DNA of 27,609 nucleotides, taken from positions 1-27,609 of the IMG/VR virus record IMGVR_UViG_3300021475_000048; one strand, given 5' to 3'. Below are positions 9,947 through 27,609 of the stretch, in pieces (the stretch's first letter is position 1; every line of letters begins with the position of its first letter). The notes under the pieces were generated by a model. It saw only the letters and a program-made list of their open reading frames with translations. It did no database searches and had not been told where the DNA came from. The position numbers were made by a program, and so were the translations under genes. The stretch comes from a virus.

Positions 9947-11142
9947 GCGACGCGCACGGCGTCGTCACGCATGGTCCGCCGCCAGGATCGAGCGACGTCC
10001 TGACGCTGATCGTCGGTCTCCAGGCGGTTACTGGCTGGCAGCGGGTATCCGTCACGCGACCCCTTGCGGCGATTCCGGCGAGCTTCTCGATCGAGGCGAC
10101 CGAGAAGTATCCCAATGCCGCCGACATCGACCTAAAGCCGGGGCAGCCTTGCACCGTCCAAATCGGCGCCGATCTCGTGCTGACCGGCTATGTCGACCGC
10201 TACACCTCCGAGATCAGCGGCGAGCAGCACACGATCCGGATCATCGGGCGCAGCAAGAGCGAGGACCTCGTTGACTGCTCGGCGATCGTTGAGAACACCA
10301 GCGCCGGAAGCGAAAGCAAAGAGGGGATGCAAATCCGCAACGGCTCGACGCTCGACATCGTTCGCAAGCTCGCCGCGCCGTACGGCGTCCAAGTCCAGAG
10401 CACGGCGGGCGATGGCATTCAGGTGCCGCAGTTCAACATCAATCTCGGCGAGACCGTCTGGGAGATCATCGACCGGATCACCCGCTATTCCGAGATGATC
10501 CCGTACGACCTGCCGGATGGCTCGGTCATGCTCGCCAAGGTCGGCACCGAGTCGATGGCGTCGGGCTTTACGGTCGGCGAGAACGTCGAGACCGCTGGTG
10601 TCAGCTTCTCGATGGATCAACGCTATCAGGAATACGAAGGCCATCTAATCTCGATGATGGCGCTCGGCACCGACGCCGGAATCAACTCGCCGACCGTCGG
10701 CCAGATCGTCCGCGACGACGAAGTGCCGCGCTTCCGCAAGCTCTATGTCATCAGCGAGCAATTCGTTATGGGCCAGCCGCTCGCCGGTAAGCGCGCGCTC
10801 TGGGAAAAGAACCGCCGATGGGGGCAGAGCTTCGCTTTTACCGTCAAGTGCGACGCATGGCGCGACGCTGCCGGCAAGCTCTGGGAGCCGAACAAGCTCG
10901 CGCCGATCACCGCGCCACAGTTGAAGCTCGCCAACAAAAGCTGGCTGATCGGCACCGTCACCTATGTCCGCGACGAAGCCGGCCAGCACGCGCAACTAGG
11001 ACTATGGCCGCCCGAGGCGTTCACCGTTGAGCCGACATCGCCGAACATGCTGGTCACGCAGGACGACGTAAACAACGCCAATCCGACCAAGCCGAACGCC
11101 GACAACAGCTTTAATCCGAAGGGCGGGACCGTCAGCACATGA
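9943..11142 (+). CDS. Baseplate hub protein (Mu gpP / gp44 family)
   Basis: 399 residues, starting at the ATG that overlaps the previous stop (ATGA). Features: [22 protein letters not shown] near the N-terminus, [38 protein letters not shown], and [16 protein letters not shown], all typical of the Mu gp44/P2 gpD-like hub. The hub is a trimeric tube-like collar that links tail tube and central spike. The frame is open 366 bases further upstream, inside the previous gene, but the translation there is Arg-rich shadow. The C-terminal 30 residues are Asn/Pro rich. Confidence 0.92.
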
Positions 11143-12344
11143 GCGTGACGGATCGGCTCTATCGCCGCGCCCAGATGACGATCGCGCCGGTCAAGATTAC
11201 CGCGACCGACGACACCGGCCCCATCCATCGTGCACAGGTGCGCGGCTTTCCGCCCGAGACGATCGACGCGCTGCCGGTGTTGCAGATTTACGGTCTCGCG
11301 TCGCACGCAATGCCGGGGTCGGACGCGATGGCGATCTTCGGGTCGGGCGACCGATCAAACGGCGTCATCGTCGCAACCGGCAATCAGAAGTATCGGCTAC
11401 GCAATCTCCTGCTCGGCGAGGTCGCGCTCTATGACAGCCACAGCAGCGTCATAAAGCTCGCCAATGGCGGCAACATCGAAGTCGCCGCGACCGGCAAGCA
11501 CACGACCACGGTTCCGACCGTCGAGGTCAACGCCTCCGACGGTGTGACCGTGACGACGCCTCTCGTGCACGTCGAGGGCCGGCAGACCATGGCGTATGAG
11601 CCTGCGGACCCGAACGAAGTCGTCACCAAGCATTACTGCGACGCGAACCGGGGCGGCGGCTCGGCGGGACCGCCTGGGCCTGCTGGACCTGCTGGGCCGA
11701 CCGGACCCGCTGGGCCGACCGGAGCGACCGGACCCGCTGGGCCCACCGGACCACAGGGGCCGAAGGGCGATACCGGCGCGACCGGCTCGACCGGCGCCCA
11801 AGGCCCGCCAGGAGCAGCTTCGACGGTTCCCGGTCCTGCGGGTCCGACCGGAGCAACCGGGCCGCAAGGTCCGATCGGCTTGACTGGCGCAACCGGCGCG
11901 ACCGGAGCAACGGGGCCGCAAGGTCCGATCGGCCTGACCGGCGCGACCGGCGCGCAAGGTCCGCAAGGGGTCGCCGGCACACCCGGCGCCACAGGGCCGC
12001 AAGGCCCCGCCGGCGCTGATTCGACGGTTCCCGGTCCGGTAGGGCCGACCGGCGCGACGGGGCCGCAAGGCCCTGCCGGAGCGACCGGAGCGACCGGGCC
12101 GCAGGGTCCGGCTGGCGCGACCGGAGCGACCGGGCCGGCAGGGCCGGCGCGCGTCAGCGCCGACGCGAACAATTCCGCGCGGCTCGGCAGCGACGGTTTC
12201 GTATGGGTGCCGCCGATCGGCGCGTCGCAATGGGACGGTCACGCGCTCGAATTCGACGCGGCGGCGGTCAGCGCGCTCGATCAGCTTTCCGCCGTCGTCG
12301 CCGAGCTTACCGCGCGGATCGCTGCGCTCGAGGCGCGCCCATGA
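11139..12344 (+). CDS. Central spike gp45-like protein fused to collagen-like repeats
   Basis: 401 residues, overlapping the hub stop (ATGA). Residues 1 to about 150 match the Mu gp45 baseplate spike: an OB-fold N-terminus ([22 protein letters not shown]), [24 protein letters not shown], then a beta-helix-like region with [12 protein letters not shown] fibre-type module follows ([17 protein letters not shown], similar to the ATKQYVDA motif of tail fibres). Residues 177-337 are Gly-X-Y triplets ([12 protein letters not shown]), broken twice by an STVPG insert. The end has [10 protein letters not shown] and a short coiled-coil ([12 protein letters not shown]). In Mu the spike ends in a metal-binding tip; here the tip is replaced or extended by a rod. 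Confidence 0.85.
11667..12149 (+). repeat. Collagen-like Gly-X-Y coding repeat
   Basis: About 53 Gly-X-Y triplets inside the spike gene. A unit reading [17 protein letters not shown] occurs twice, starting at 11850 and 11904 (period 54 bases, 18 residues). Another unit, STVPGP[12 protein letters not shown], also occurs twice. The DNA is repetitive and GC rich, so repeat number probably varies by slippage or recombination. The opposite strand is also open here for about 540 bases, but that follows from codon composition. Confidence 0.85.
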
Positions 12345-20836: not shown

Positions 20837-21054
20837 AGTTCGGACTCCGGTAAGGGTTCATAGGCATCCGGCAGGATCGCAAACGGCGGCAGGCCGAGCG
20901 TCGCGCGCTTCTCGTTGATCGCGTCCACGCAGACGCGGCACAACGGCTCGCGCTCGCCGGTAAGCGCGGTCGTGGACGGCACGGCGTTCGGATTGAAAGA
21001 GAAAAGGCGCCCGCACGTAATGCAGGCGCCCATGGCGAACACATAGCCGCTCAT
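20833..21054 (-). CDS. Mini zinc-ribbon protein
   Basis: 73 residues; start ATG at 21054 overlaps the integrase stop (ATGA), which fixes the start even though the frame is open further upstream. Cys pairs CITC (11-14) and CRVC (39-42) suit one zinc site, with GRLFSFNPNAVPS between them. The ending, LPDAYEPLPE, is conserved in phage proteins of this type. Probably a small nucleic acid- or protein-binding accessory protein; role unknown. Confidence 0.75.
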   Translation of the reverse strand: MSGYVFAMGACITCGRLFSFNPNAVPSTTALTGEREPLCRVCVDAINEKRATLGLPPFAILPDAYEPLPESEL

Positions 21055-22415
21055 GCGGCCTCCCTCAGTTGCACGACGTTGCTCGGCTCGACCATGCCGA
21101 CAAGCGCGAAGGCGGACGGCGCGCCGAGCAGCAGCATGTCGGCCCATACGCAAGCGAGCCGACGCCGAACGGGAAGCAACACCGCATGGTCGTAATGCTT
21201 CTGCGCGCGCGAGACACCGATCGGCTTATGCGCGAGCATCGCGTCGATCGCGCGTTCGTCGCGAAAGTCGCGCTCGATTAGCAGCGTCGTCATCGTCGAG
21301 CGCCAGCCGTGGATGGTATGGCGACCGGCAAGGCCGACGCGCGCGATCGTCCGCTGCACGACCTTGTTGAGACCGTTGCGCGCGAGACCACCGCTACGGC
21401 TATGGCCGGGAAATACCGCGCCGCTCTTGATCCCCAACGCCGCCGCGAGCGCGCGCGCCGCGAGCAAGACTTCGACCGCTTGCGGCGAGAGCGGCACGAT
21501 ATGCGACCGCTTTTTGTTTTTCCGGCCTTTCATGCGAACCGCCGGAATCGTCCACGTCCAGCCGTCCTCGCCTTCCGAGACCTCCCACCATTCTGCGCCG
21601 ATCGCTTCCATCTTGCGAACAGCGGTTAGCGCGATAAGCCGATGCAGGAGCTTCTCGAAAACCGGCGCGCGCGCCGTCTCGACCGCGCGCAGGACCGTCC
21701 GCGCTTCCTCGATCGTCGCGACGAACGCGCGGCATTGTTCCTCGCTATCCTCGCCGCCAATCGTTCGATGCGGCAAATCTTCGGCAATGATGCGGACGGG
21801 ATTTTCCGCGACCAGCTTCCGTCGCAACGCATAGTCGAATAGCTTTTGCAGGTTCAGGCGGACGTGAACCGCCTGGGCGCGTAGGTATAGCCCTTTCGCG
21901 TTGACGACGCCGCCCACGATCGCCTCGACGTCATGCGAGCCGATCCGACCGATCGCGCGGTCGCCGATCGCCGGATAGACATACGCCGCCATGCGGCCCT
22001 TGACGGCGCGCGCATAGGGTTCCGACCACGGCACCTTGCTCGCAGTCTTGCTCGCGGTCGCGATCCAGGCGTCACCGACCTTCCGCACCGTCGCCGCGTC
22101 GGCCTCGATCCGCGCCGCGCGCTTCTCTTGACGCTCTTTGGTCGGATCGCCGCCATCGTGCACCGTTTGCGCGATATCGGCGCGCTTCGCCTTCGCGTCC
22201 TCGACCGAGACGCGCGGCCAGCGACCGACGATCGTAGCTTGCGCCTTGCCGGCGACGTAGTAGCGGACCTGCCACGACTTCGTGCCATTGGCGGACACCA
22301 GCAGGTAGAGGCCATTGCCGAAACGGAGCTTGCTCCCCGGCTTCGCCGTCTTGATCTCGGTTCCCTTGGCGAGCTTGGTAGCTTGCGTCGGGATCATTGC
22401 AGTGCTAGCAGTCAT
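21051..22415 (-). CDS. int: Tyrosine-family integrase with DUF4102-type N-terminus
   Basis: 454 residues. The N-terminal ~90 residues (LRFGNGLYLLVSANGTKSWQVRYYVAG, then VEDAKAKRADI) are the arm-binding DUF4102-like domain of P4-type integrases. A SAM-like core-binding region follows. Catalytic residues: Arg in LTAVRKME, a basic beta-turn lysine in MKGRKNKKRSH, His/Arg in HTIHGWRSTM, His in MLAHKP, and the nucleophile Tyr in QKHYDHA. All five are present, so it should be active in site-specific integration and excision. It lies on the minus strand with phage genes both sides; the partner attP site is not visible with certainty. Confidence 0.93.
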   Translation of the reverse strand: MTASTAMIPTQATKLAKGTEIKTAKPGSKLRFGNGLYLLVSANGTKSWQVRYYVAGKAQATIVGRWPRVSVEDAKAKRADIAQTVHDGGDPTKERQEKRAARIEADAATVRKVGDAWIATASKTASKVPWSEPYARAVKGRMAAYVYPAIGDRAIGRIGSHDVEAIVGGVVNAKGLYLRAQAVHVRLNLQKLFDYALRRKLVAENPVRIIAEDLPHRTIGGEDSEEQCRAFVATIEEARTVLRAVETARAPVFEKLLHRLIALTAVRKMEAIGAEWWEVSEGEDGWTWTIPAVRMKGRKNKKRSHIVPLSPQAVEVLLAARALAAALGIKSGAVFPGHSRSGGLARNGLNKVVQRTIARVGLAGRHTIHGWRSTMTTLLIERDFRDERAIDAMLAHKPIGVSRAQKHYDHAVLLPVRRRLACVWADMLLLGAPSAFALVGMVEPSNVVQLREAA

Positions 22416-22431
22416 TGTCGAAGTTTCCTTT
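22413..22431 (-). promoter_or_regulatory. Integrase leader and ribosome-binding site
   Basis: On the minus strand the leader reads AAAGGAAACTTCGACAATG. It matches the leader of the upstream small gene (22650-22668) at 16 of 19 positions. AAAGGAAA is the likely ribosome-binding site and sets the ATG at 22415. Confidence 0.55.
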
Positions 22432-22440
22432 GTGTTGAGA

Positions 22441-22468
22441 AGCGGCGCCCCCTGCCAGGGGCGCCGCT
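22441..22468. terminator. Strong hairpin ahead of the integrase gene
   Basis: A perfect 11 bp stem, AGCGGCGCCCC (22441-22451) with GGGGCGCCGCT (22458-22468), and a 6-base loop. It lies between the stop of the 59-residue gene (22476) and the integrase ATG (22415), so on the minus strand it would follow that small gene. No T-run follows, so it may be an attenuator that lowers integrase expression rather than a full terminator. Confidence 0.5.
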
Positions 22469-22475
22469 CGCCGTT

Positions 22476-22652
22476 TCAGCCGTTGTCGCGATTGAACGCC
22501 GCCAAGGCGTTCCAGGCGGTCACGAGCCGAAGCTCGGCAGCCGGATCAAGGCCGCGCTCGGTCTCGATCCGCGCTCGCTCGATTGCGCTCCAGAGCCGTT
22601 CGCGCTTTGCTTCCGTCTCGCAATCCGGCTTGCAGTTGGTAGTCTTGGTCAT
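22476..22652 (-). CDS. Small helical protein upstream of integrase
   Basis: 58 residues from the ATG at 22652, preceded by AAAGGGAA. MTKTTNCKPDCETEAKRER, then WSAIERARIETERGLD and LRLVTAWNALAAFNRDNG predict two or three helices. The frame is open farther upstream, but the leader match to the integrase gene favours this start. Function unknown; position suggests an integrase-linked accessory or regulator. I cannot assign it to a known excisionase family. Confidence 0.55.
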   Translation of the reverse strand: MTKTTNCKPDCETEAKRERLWSAIERARIETERGLDPAAELRLVTAWNALAAFNRDNG

Positions 22653-22688
22653 GGTCGAGGTTCCCTTTCGTACGGAATTCATACGCAC

Positions 22689-22705
22689 CAGGAGGACATC
22701 TCCTG
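22689..22705. promoter_or_regulatory. Palindrome, candidate operator
   Basis: CAGGAGGACATCTCCTG: 6 bp perfect arms around a 5-base centre. It lies 37 bases upstream of the small minus-strand gene. Its size suits a dimeric helix-turn-helix repressor. It touches the first copy of the 18-base repeat. Confidence 0.45.
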
Positions 22706-22802
22706 ACATGACATTGCATTCCGCGCAAGCGTCATACGAGCTAAACGCCCGGAACGACAAGGGTTTCGCCGGGAAATGTCACCGCCTGACATGGCATGGC
22801 AT
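22702..22802 (+). repeat. Pair of 18-base near-identical direct repeats
   Basis: CCTGACATGACATTGCAT at 22702-22719 and CCTGACATGGCATGGCAT at 22785-22802 match at 16 of 18 positions, 83 bases apart. The second copy overlaps the promoter -35 box. They may be binding sites for a repressor or integrase arm sites. Confidence 0.55.
22776..22792. promoter_or_regulatory. Palindrome over the -35 box, candidate operator
   Basis: ATGTCA, a 5-base spacer, then TGACAT: a 6 bp perfect inverted repeat that covers the -35 element of the plus-strand promoter. A protein bound here would block RNA polymerase. Confidence 0.45.
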
Positions 22803-22815
22803 GAAAGGCTATAAT
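22786..22815 (+). promoter_or_regulatory. Sigma70-type promoter
   Basis: CTGACA (22786-22791; 5 of 6 to consensus), an 18-base spacer, and a perfect TATAAT (22810-22815). Transcription would start near 22822 on the plus strand, away from the integrase and toward the antisense of the early genes. In this GC-rich DNA a perfect -10 box is notable. Confidence 0.65.
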
Positions 22816-22836
22816 GTGGTCAACAATGTCGATCCT

Positions 22837-22869
22837 GGCTAATCACCGCGCAATTTCAGCGGGTTAGCC
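22837..22869 (+). other. Hairpin close to the predicted transcript start
   Basis: Outer stem GGCTAA (22837-22842) with TTAGCC (22864-22869), inner stem CCGC (22846-22849) with GCGG (22859-22862), and a 9-base loop. It begins about 15 bases after the predicted start. It could be an attenuator, a 5' stabiliser or the body of a short RNA. No T-run follows. Confidence 0.4.
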
Positions 22870-22899
22870 GAGCGCCGCGAAAAACCTTCCGCAATTTCA
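22849..22899 (+). repeat. 10-base direct repeat
   Basis: CGCAATTTCA occurs at 22849-22858 (in the hairpin loop) and at 22890-22899, 41 bases apart (about four helical turns). Possible protein-binding sites; might be chance. Confidence 0.35.
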
Positions 22900-22964
22900 T
22901 ACATACGCGCGCGGCTGGCCCGCGTTGCTTGCATGGATTGCAAAGCGCCGCGAAGCTCCGGCCT

Positions 22965-23048
22965 ATGATCGAGGACGTTGACCTATGGCGCGCGGCGTTC
23001 TGGCTCGCCGTCCTAATCGGCCTGCTGCTGTTCGTCCGCTCGCGCTGA
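22965..23048 (+). CDS. Possible 27-residue membrane peptide
   Basis: An ATG ORF of 27 codons downstream of the plus-strand promoter: an acidic start (MIEDVDLWR) then a hydrophobic segment (FWLAVLIGLLLFV) and RSR end. The composition is that of a single-span micropeptide, but the ribosome-binding site is weak and length gives little statistical support. Confidence 0.3.
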   Translation: MIEDVDLWRAAFWLAVLIGLLLFVRSR

Positions 23049-26241: not shown

Positions 26242-26440
26242 TGCGTATTCCCTCCCTTGCGGCTTTGGCCTGCTCCAAATGGACAAGCACCGCATCCATG
26301 ACGTCGATCTGCCGATCGGCCTTGCGGCGGTTCATCCGTCCGTCGTGGACCGCGCGCCCATAGACTTCGCGCCGCTTGCGACACTCGCGAGAGACTTCGG
26401 CGATCATGTCGTCAATCGTCACCGGCAGGAGATCGGGCAT
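26231..26440 (-). CDS. Small conserved phage protein
   Basis: 69 residues from the ATG at 26440, which overlaps the upstream stop (TAATG). VTIDDMIAEVSRECRKRREVYGRAV, then GRMNRRKADRQIDVMDAVLVHLEQ: an all-helical, basic protein of a type common in phage early regions (pattern of E-x-x-x-R-R-x-x-Y followed by M-x-A-V). Function unknown. Confidence 0.7.
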   Translation of the reverse strand: MPDLLPVTIDDMIAEVSRECRKRREVYGRAVHDGRMNRRKADRQIDVMDAVLVHLEQAKAAREGIRNED

Positions 26441-26682
26441 TACCGCCTCCGCTTCGCTTGCTTGTTGCGTCGCTCCTCGACCCATGCCGCGTACTGGCTG
26501 GCGCTCCATCGCCGGCTATGACCGATCAATATCCCCTCGGGGAATTCGCCTTCGTGCACGAGCCGATAGAAGTGCCGGAGCGAGACCCGCATAAGCTCGG
26601 CGAGTTGATCGGCGTCGATCAGTACCGGCACGGCGACCGTTCCGCCGGCCTCGAGGTCGATCTCGGCCAGCGTCGATTTCAT
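26440..26682 (-). CDS. AlpA/excisionase-like winged-helix regulator
   Basis: 80 residues; start overlaps the upstream stop (ATGA). VLIDADQLAELMRVSLRHFYRLVHEGEFP, then ILIGHSRRWSASQYAAWVEERR is the AlpA/Xis (MerR-like) pattern: helix-turn-helix at about residues 26-45, a wing with the conserved S-RRW and a last helix. These proteins bind DNA as excision directionality factors or regulators. It lies 4 kb from the integrase but in the same leftward strand, so it is a candidate excisionase. Confidence 0.75.
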   Translation of the reverse strand: MKSTLAEIDLEAGGTVAVPVLIDADQLAELMRVSLRHFYRLVHEGEFPEGILIGHSRRWSASQYAAWVEERRNKQAKRRR

Positions 26683-26903
26683 GCCGCCGCACCTTTTAAC
26701 GGCGGCATCTGCGGGACGTCATCGAACATGCCGGGGGCCTCGCCCTCTTCGATGCCGCCGCCGACCGCCGCGATAACCGGAATCGCCTCGATGCGCGCGG
26801 TCACATACGCCATGACGCGATGCCGCGCGCCGGGATGGAGCGACGCGAGATCATGGATGATCCGGCGCATTACGGTAATTTCGTTATCGGCAGGGACGCT
26901 CAT
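26679..26903 (-). CDS. Small hypothetical phage protein
   Basis: 74 residues from the ATG at 26903, which overlaps the upstream gene's stop (ATGA). VMRRIIHDLASLHPGARHRVMAYVTARIEA is an amphipathic helical segment of a type I see in phage early proteins; the rest is acidic and Gly/Pro rich. The frame extends upstream to 27008 without support. Function unknown. Confidence 0.62.
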   Translation of the reverse strand: MSVPADNEITVMRRIIHDLASLHPGARHRVMAYVTARIEAIPVIAAVGGGIEEGEAPGMFDDVPQMPPLKGAAA

Positions 26904-27609
26904 GGTTGGACTCTCCTCGCGGTTGCCAGCGCCGCCTTGCGTCGCTCGATCGCGTCCTGCAACCGATCTTCGTCGGGCGGAATCAAGTTTCTGGTTTTGG
27001 CGCGCCACGCCGCGCTGACCGCCAATGTCGCGATTTGGTCGGCGTTCATCGTCTCGATCTCGCCGACAAGCTCGGCGACCGGATCATCCGGCCACTCGCG
27101 GTCGCGGTCGGGCGTCTCGACGGCTTGCGCCAGCCGCTGGTGGGCGTCGCGTAGCGCATCGTTGATCTGGCCGCGGATGAGCGTCGGCGACTTCTCCAGC
27201 GCCTCCACCACGCGCTTGTTGCTGGCGATCTCGACAAGCTCGGTCTCGGTCGCCGCGTCCGCGAGAAGCTCCGAGAGGTTCCGGAGCCACAGGGTCGGGT
27301 TCGGCTCTTCCAGCGCCAGGAGACCGCCTCTAGCAGCACCAGGTGTCGTCCCGTAGGCTGTGGACGCCTGCCGGTCGCGCGCGGTCAGGCCGGCGTCGCC
27401 GTGGTCTATCTTGCCCTCGATCGTCACCCCGCCGCTTTCGGTCTGCTGGTCCTCCATCTCCTCGGCGGCATAGCCGAGACCTTCCTCGGGAAACGCGCTC
27501 CGGAGCACCGCCGCCTTGCAGCACTTGTGGATCATTTGCCGGGGCGCCTTCGCCCACCGTTCGTTCGGCACTTCGCTCCGGAAGCCCGAGAAGCCGTAGG
27601 ACTCTTCCC
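26900..27609 (-). CDS. RecT/Bet-type single-strand annealing protein (C-terminal part)
   Basis: The frame is open to the window edge, so the 5' end is missing; about 235 residues are visible. The first ~60 residues contain WAKAPRQMIHKCCKAAVLRSAFPEE and YAAEEMED, matching the C-terminal part of RecT/Bet phage annealing domains (W-x-x-x-P-x-x-M-(I/L)-x-K, then LR-x-AFP). These proteins coat and anneal single-stranded DNA during phage recombination and replication. About 175 residues follow as a tail (acidic linker, then two helical blocks that resemble each other). A partner exonuclease would be expected outside the window. It is the first visible gene of the leftward operon. Confidence 0.82.
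   Translation of the reverse strand, partial: EESYGFSGFRSEVPNERWAKAPRQMIHKCCKAAVLRSAFPEEGLGYAAEEMEDQQTESGGVTIEGKIDHGDAGLTARDRQASTAYGTTPGAARGGLLALEEPNPTLWLRNLSELLADAATETELVEIASNKRVVEALEKSPTLIRGQINDALRDAHQRLAQAVETPDRDREWPDDPVAELVGEIETMNADQIATLAVSAAWRAKTRNLIPPDEDRLQDAIERRKAALATARRVQP

Follow-up and report, generated by a model that had tools for sequence, protein, structure and literature searches.

The cluster of repeats, palindromes and promoter-like elements lying upstream of the integrase gene in this virus record very probably combines the attachment site (attP) of a temperate tailed phage with the integrase-operon promoter. AttP is a known kind of site, and the relatives of this one keep the spacing of the binding sites while swapping their letters. 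Computed support for the assignment comes from conservation of the island, the four-site geometry of its relatives, anchors in the phages phiKM1 and phiAP1, and arm words that covary with the integrase's arm-binding domain; the protein-DNA contacts, the activity of the promoter and the roles of the repeat arrays and palindromes we infer. With this assignment, an odd repeat cluster of an uncultured phage becomes a defined attachment site.

The window, which is the whole 27.6-kb virus record that was analyzed, represents a phage fragment, since it starts inside a capsid gene (1-801) and ends inside a RecT-like gene (26900-27607). Its plus strand carries capsid, connector and head-completion genes, then tail sheath, Mu-like baseplate and J-like genes; these structural genes are followed on the minus strand by the tyrosine integrase, a 58-aa open reading frame (ORF), the island, and early genes including those for an AlpA-like protein and the RecT fragment. 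The structural gene at 11139-12344 encodes a Mu Gp45-type spike protein with collagen repeats, and the early protein at 25556-26170 matches the RNA polymerase alpha C-terminal domain (PF03118, E 1.4e-9). No tRNA was found in the window, and an Rfam search gave no match. The features discussed below are:

21051-22415, minus strand: tyrosine integrase with Arm-DNA-bind_3, Phage_int_M and Phage_integrase domains; ORF intact and full length
22441-22468, minus strand: terminator-like hairpin directly upstream of int, equalled by at most 2 of 200 shuffles
22476-22652, minus strand: 58-aa ORF in the attP-int interval, in the slot of variable small genes in relatives; no family
22666-22684, minus strand: P'-arm arm-type pair, GTATGAAT at 22677-22684 (+144) and GTACGAAA at 22666-22673 (+155), 11 bp apart
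22693-22719, minus strand: array B2, one 18-mer (22702-22719) and the 17-nt palindrome, with 10-bp-spaced CATGTC/GATGTC units
22714-22728, minus strand: palindromic site TTGCGCGGAATGCAA at the predicted transcription start, consensus TTGCA-N5-TGCAA
22731-22760, minus strand: predicted promoter of the int operon, TTGTCG-18-TATGAC (8/12), directed at the small ORF and int
22777-22802, minus strand: array B1, the other 18-mer (22785-22802) and the palindrome covering the -35 box, with 10-bp-spaced CATGCC/CATGTC/GTGACA units
22786-22815, plus strand: CTGACA-18-TATAAT promoter of the original prediction (11/12); the core overlaps its TATAAT
22812-22828, minus strand: attP core CATTG-TTGACCA-CATTA, between two pairs of arm-type direct repeats
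22854-22866, minus strand: IHF-like site TAACCCGCTGAAA in the interval between P arm and core, read by eye, with two mismatches to the consensus
22895-22902, minus strand: P-arm arm-type site GTATGAAA at -74, assigned by eye; relatives have CGCATGA at -76/-64
22929-22943, minus strand: second palindrome copy TTGCAATCCATGCAA at -115
26440-26682, minus strand: AlpA/excisionase-like HTH_17 protein (domain match), candidate recombination directionality factor (RDF)

The conserved unit covers about 22650-22945 (minus strand, ~300 nt) and is wider than the 127 bases singled out by the original prediction, which fall inside it. Related integrase genes keep this block on their upstream side even though different genes intervene before int. 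The integrase alone as query gave no relatives in viral contigs or genome contigs; an alignment with phage integrases as query returned relatives at 57, 54, 51 and 53% identity, and one more (L110, 58%) was reached through another gene. A similar block of 291-296 nt was present upstream of int in L018, L019 and L020, past different small genes; its distance to int was 331-630 nt there and 237 nt in the window. A profile built from the window and these three islands matched L112, L114/L115, L118 and L119 (E 1e-48 to 7e-36), L122 (4e-5) and phiKM1 (4e-6), and a nine-island profile, again with the window in its training set, additionally matched L105/L106, L100 and L022 as well as the later loci L249, L253, L255, L263, L265 and L269. 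Pairwise identity of the window island to the other eight of the nine-island set was 44-61%. The loci L110/L113/L248, L021/L259 and L260, on contigs that stop short of the block, were left out of the island set; L264 and L266 are near-duplicates of each other, and L258 is the same locus as L020. At the DNA level, positions 22400-23000 gave short weak matches only among phages and plasmids, and none of the 12 plasmid integrase matches listed was closer than 32%. Genome-contig scans with the integrase alone or with the group alignment gave no relative, and no attB, attL or attR of this integrase group was obtained from them.

In the relatives, two pairs of direct repeats flank the core at about -77 and +130, with 11-12 bp within each pair and pair starts 207-209 nt apart, once 219. 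For 17 of 20 islands an arrangement as good was reached in only 0-2 of 300 shuffles, the exceptions being the window, L254 and L263, the last with a mis-set core; this error also entered the core, plus-strand promoter and array comparisons, L263 was omitted from the int-promoter scan, and its arm quadruple was found in a later test of 27 regions. A motif-free scan scored at least 26/28 in 19 of 28 upstream regions of related integrases versus none of 76 control segments, and the pair-to-pair distance was 207-209 in 18 of these hits and 219 in one. The nine regions below threshold were those of the window, L254, L261, L267 (with 617 nt upstream only), L269, L270, L271, L275 (which scored 25/28) and L276. 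Both the 27 regions of the quadruple test and the 28 of the motif-free scan were chosen from integrase relatives. Among nine loci with less than 34% integrase identity (L278, L280, L287, L289, L291, L296, L300, L303 and L305), the quadruple was detected in L305 only, at a distance of 219. It is suggested that attP can be found by this geometry of four equal sites in the sequence itself, without a lysogen. Titles and abstracts on attP architecture and int regulation held no description of a fixed two-pair geometry, which does not exclude that one has been published.

Two Acetobacter/Komagataeibacter phages, phiAP1 and phiKM1, anchor the assignment; their integrases are of the same kind as that of the window, at 29-33% identity. 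Integration of phiAP1 into tRNA-Ser has been demonstrated with an attP-int vector (PMC8566455). In phiKM1, the 15-bp sequence CATCCCCTCCGCCAA stands at both prophage ends, at the 3' end of tRNA-Ser, and the island profile match starts right beside it; the position of the core relative to the arm pairs in our islands is that of this duplicated phiKM1 core. Like the relatives, both phages carry two arm pairs around the core, with 11-12 bp within and 210-211 nt between them (for phiAP1, ~210 is the raw value of 229 less a 19-nt duplication from joined record ends, corrected by hand), and both reached a four-site score of 28/28, where the best of 200 shuffles scored 24. Unlike the window group, their cores are tRNA-Ser 3' ends and their arm words are GTGGGTA (phiAP1) and GGGGTAT (phiKM1). 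As in the window, 10-bp-spaced TGACA repeats were seen by eye in the same place in phiKM1, whose arm word differs.

Arm words vary by clade and include CGCATGA, CGCATAC, GGTTACC, GGCGACC, CCTTATA, CCGGGTAT, CGGTTTCC and GTGGTGA. For 23 loci with words assigned by eye (including L254, L261 and L269, and omitting the window), arm-word similarity followed the identity of the arm-binding domain (Spearman 0.66) more closely than that of the catalytic domain (0.49), over 253 non-independent pairs. The window's own arm-site set is degenerate, with three of four sites recognizable by eye: the partner of the P-arm site, near -63, could not be recognized, and the P'-arm pair occupies the place of the relatives' CGCATGA pair after an 11-bp insertion common to L258. 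These arm sites were equalled by 104 of 300 shuffles and gave no four-site match in the motif-free scan. Because this set is degenerate and escapes the scans, it is by homology to the other islands, not by its arm sites, that attP is identified in the window. Judged against the IHF consensus, the site in L254 (TAACCCGTTGATA) fits fully and that in the window has two mismatches.

The crossover overlap is predicted to be the 7-bp TTGACCA at 22817-22823, which would hold the bases exchanged. Inverted half-sites surround this ~7-bp overlap, perfectly in L261 (CATTG-TTGACCA-CAATG) and imperfectly in the window, where the right half reads CATTA instead of CAATG, and an integrase with arm-binding and catalytic domains is encoded ~0.4 kb from the core. 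The core was recognizable in 17 of 20 islands, the exceptions being L258, where its position was set by hand, L269, and L263 with its mis-set core. In the window group it takes the form CRTTG-TTSANSA-CAAYG or similar. This pattern occurs in at least 120 stretches of the viral contigs, about the chance number by a rough, uncomputed estimate, and one of these stretches is a known island (L132, on the same contig as L122). In L262 (5760-6000), L268 (5200-5450) and L277 (5620-5870), TCCCGCA cores replace TTSANSA within the same four-site frame, suggesting another host target. Read on the plus strand, the cores give R-[IV]-[VL]-V-N-N-A-G, presumably resembling the NNAG motif of short-chain dehydrogenases. 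A coding-frame test of the cores gave no significant result, with 126 of 500 column shuffles doing equally well, and location of attB inside a coding sequence therefore stays a guess.

Two 18-base units had drawn attention to the region, CCTGACATGACATTGCAT (22702-22719) and CCTGACATGGCATGGCAT (22785-22802), and both are indeed present and 16/18 identical. They extend to 23 nt (22697-22719 and 22780-22802, 83% identical), and the repeat is beyond chance, since none of 200 dinucleotide shuffles of 22660-22960 reached 16/18 within 130 bases. The palindromes described along with them, one of 17 bases at 22689-22705 (6/8 positions paired) and one over the -35 box (TGTCACCGCCTGACA, 22777-22791; 5/7 paired), exist but do not rise above chance: an equal 17-mer was held by 162 of 200 shuffles, and the best 15-mer palindrome of the region pairs 6/7, as do those of 82 of 200 shuffles. 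The promoter with a perfect TATAAT is likewise real as a sequence, none of 500 shuffles having reached its score of 11/12 on one strand, but is not conserved: it was found in none of 19 relatives (a comparison that took in L263 with its mis-set core), where the best score at the homologous place was 9/12 and the others 5-8. No plus-strand gene was identified downstream, and this promoter is probably fortuitous. The conserved promoter position is instead predicted between the 18-mers, on the minus strand and directed towards int. Its best match lies near +57/+86 in most islands and at +68/+98 in the window after the 11-bp insertion; the summed score over 19 islands is 140, where shuffles average 128 and reach 138 at most, and the consensus is weak.

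In the window, the two arrays together were not equalled by any of 200 shuffles. Arrays with 10-bp spacing were found at no more than 9 of 200 shuffles in nine of 20 islands, six of them TGACA-like, and the array pair was missing altogether in four of 20; the TGACA type is confined to the P' side. Absence of the repeats from relatives had been named as a possible refutation, and in this respect the outcome is mixed, as 10-bp-spaced repeats occur in some relatives and are missing in others while the whole site is conserved. The 18-mers are probably a second repeat class and not integrase arm sites: in the relatives, the arm sites consist of another repeat, which is specific to the clade and flanks the core on either side. 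Twelve loci in other viruses contain the 18-mer; none showed integrase similarity of at least 40% or, among the matches listed, matched an island with an E value of 1 or lower. For the arrays, the best reading is that a separate regulator or RDF would bind there; the AlpA-like protein, correctly noted earlier and carrying an HTH_17 domain, is most plausibly the first candidate. The TTGCA-N5-TGCAA palindromes, with 0-2 mismatches, recur in eight of the first nine islands both at the start side (not in L122) and at -115 to -117 (not in L118).

The original prediction had offered a genetic switch or an integrase arm-site array, and the second option was right in kind, the island being an attachment site, though probably not in taking the 18-mers for arm sites. 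For the first, the region would be a lysis-lysogeny operator with divergent promoters and a repressor on the 18-mers and palindromes, and the close company of repeats and a near-consensus plus-strand promoter, as well as TTGCA-N5-TGCAA palindromes on both sides, would suit it; some repressor may well bind, given these flanking palindromes. We nevertheless regard a switch as very improbable. As had been stated from the outset, no adjacent CI/Cro-type repressor is seen: the neighbouring products that were tested, encoded on the minus strand, showed no such domain, leaving no adjacent divergent repressor genes among them. The plus-strand promoter, unconserved in the 19 relatives, leads to no identified plus-strand gene, and a switch leaves no role for the conserved core and four-site geometry, which coincide with the real att cores of phiKM1 and phiAP1. 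With a conserved four-site island, an unconserved plus-strand promoter and palindromes at chance level, the data thus argue against a CI/Cro switch and for attP overlapping the int-operon promoter.

Other assignments within an attP were also weighed. The TGACA arrays could themselves be the integrase arm-type sites, with the CGCATGA-type repeats serving an excisionase; arm sites in lambda are spaced by 10 bp, as the arrays are, and in the window the arrays are significant while the CGCATGA-type sites are weak. This is rather unlikely, as the arrays stand on the P' side only, are missing from several relatives and turn up again in phiKM1 next to another both-arm word, and it is the both-arm words that track the integrase N-terminal domain. 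Slightly less unlikely, yet still improbable, is a decayed attP from which part of the P arm is gone, with the phage integrating inefficiently or using a different route. The unrecognizable partner near -63 and the CATTA right half would fit such decay, whereas the intact, full-length integrase ORF and the conservation in place of the other elements, including the 11-bp insertion common to L258, speak against it.

For an attP joined to the int promoter, we propose that the integrase contacts the core through its catalytic part and, through its N-terminal domain, the repeat pairs (11-12-bp spacing) of the two arms. A bend of the IHF type, placed between core and P arm, would let the ~300 bp fold up as an intasome able to recombine with attB of the host. 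Transcription of the small ORF and int would start from a promoter in the P' arm, between the 18-mers and with a TTGCA-N5-TGCAA palindrome at the start. A regulator or RDF on the arrays, for which the AlpA-like protein is the most plausible candidate, would repress int and promote excision. A hairpin upstream of int, at no more than 2 of 200 shuffles, was found in 13 of 27 loci including the window; at 22441-22468, in the stretch from the attP-side promoter to int, it may act as an attenuator.

In lambda attP, the core is flanked by P and P' arms with arm-type and bending sites. The window shares this plan in its predicted sites and differs in the spacing and number of arm sites, the relatives here having equal pairs at about -77 and +130. 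In KplE1, attL overlaps the int promoter, and negative control by IntS and TorI, the integrase and RDF, has been measured (PMC2951348). The KplE1 attL/intS region resembles the window in that an int promoter overlaps an att arm carrying integrase and RDF sites, predicted here; it differs in that control was measured there and is a prediction here, and in that the window has a small ORF and a hairpin separating promoter and int. Negative control of int in the window is proposed by analogy with this repression of an attL-overlapping int promoter by integrase and RDF.

More tentatively, and with somewhat less than even confidence, we suggest a widespread attP chassis in which three layers could be exchanged independently on a rigid frame: arm words, along with the arm-binding domain; cores (TTSANSA-type, TCCCGCA-type, tRNA-Ser), along with the host target; and a control layer of 10-bp repeats and palindromes around the int promoter. 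The pair-to-pair distance of this frame would be fixed at 207-211 bp, or at 219, one helical turn more. If this holds, and with more genomes, arm words would become readable from sequence and a recognition code for Arm-DNA-bind_3 could be derived; the natural set of arm words and integrases is raw material for such a code, and likewise for building integration vectors for laboratory strains.

The interval between attP and int resembles a cargo slot, as its small genes vary by relative and the core-to-int distance ranges from 284 to 1831 nt; the window's 58-aa ORF gave no tblastn match beyond the window's own DNA among the loci then compared. One 83-kb contig (L249 and L253) carries two related integrases ~41 kb apart, each with an intact island.
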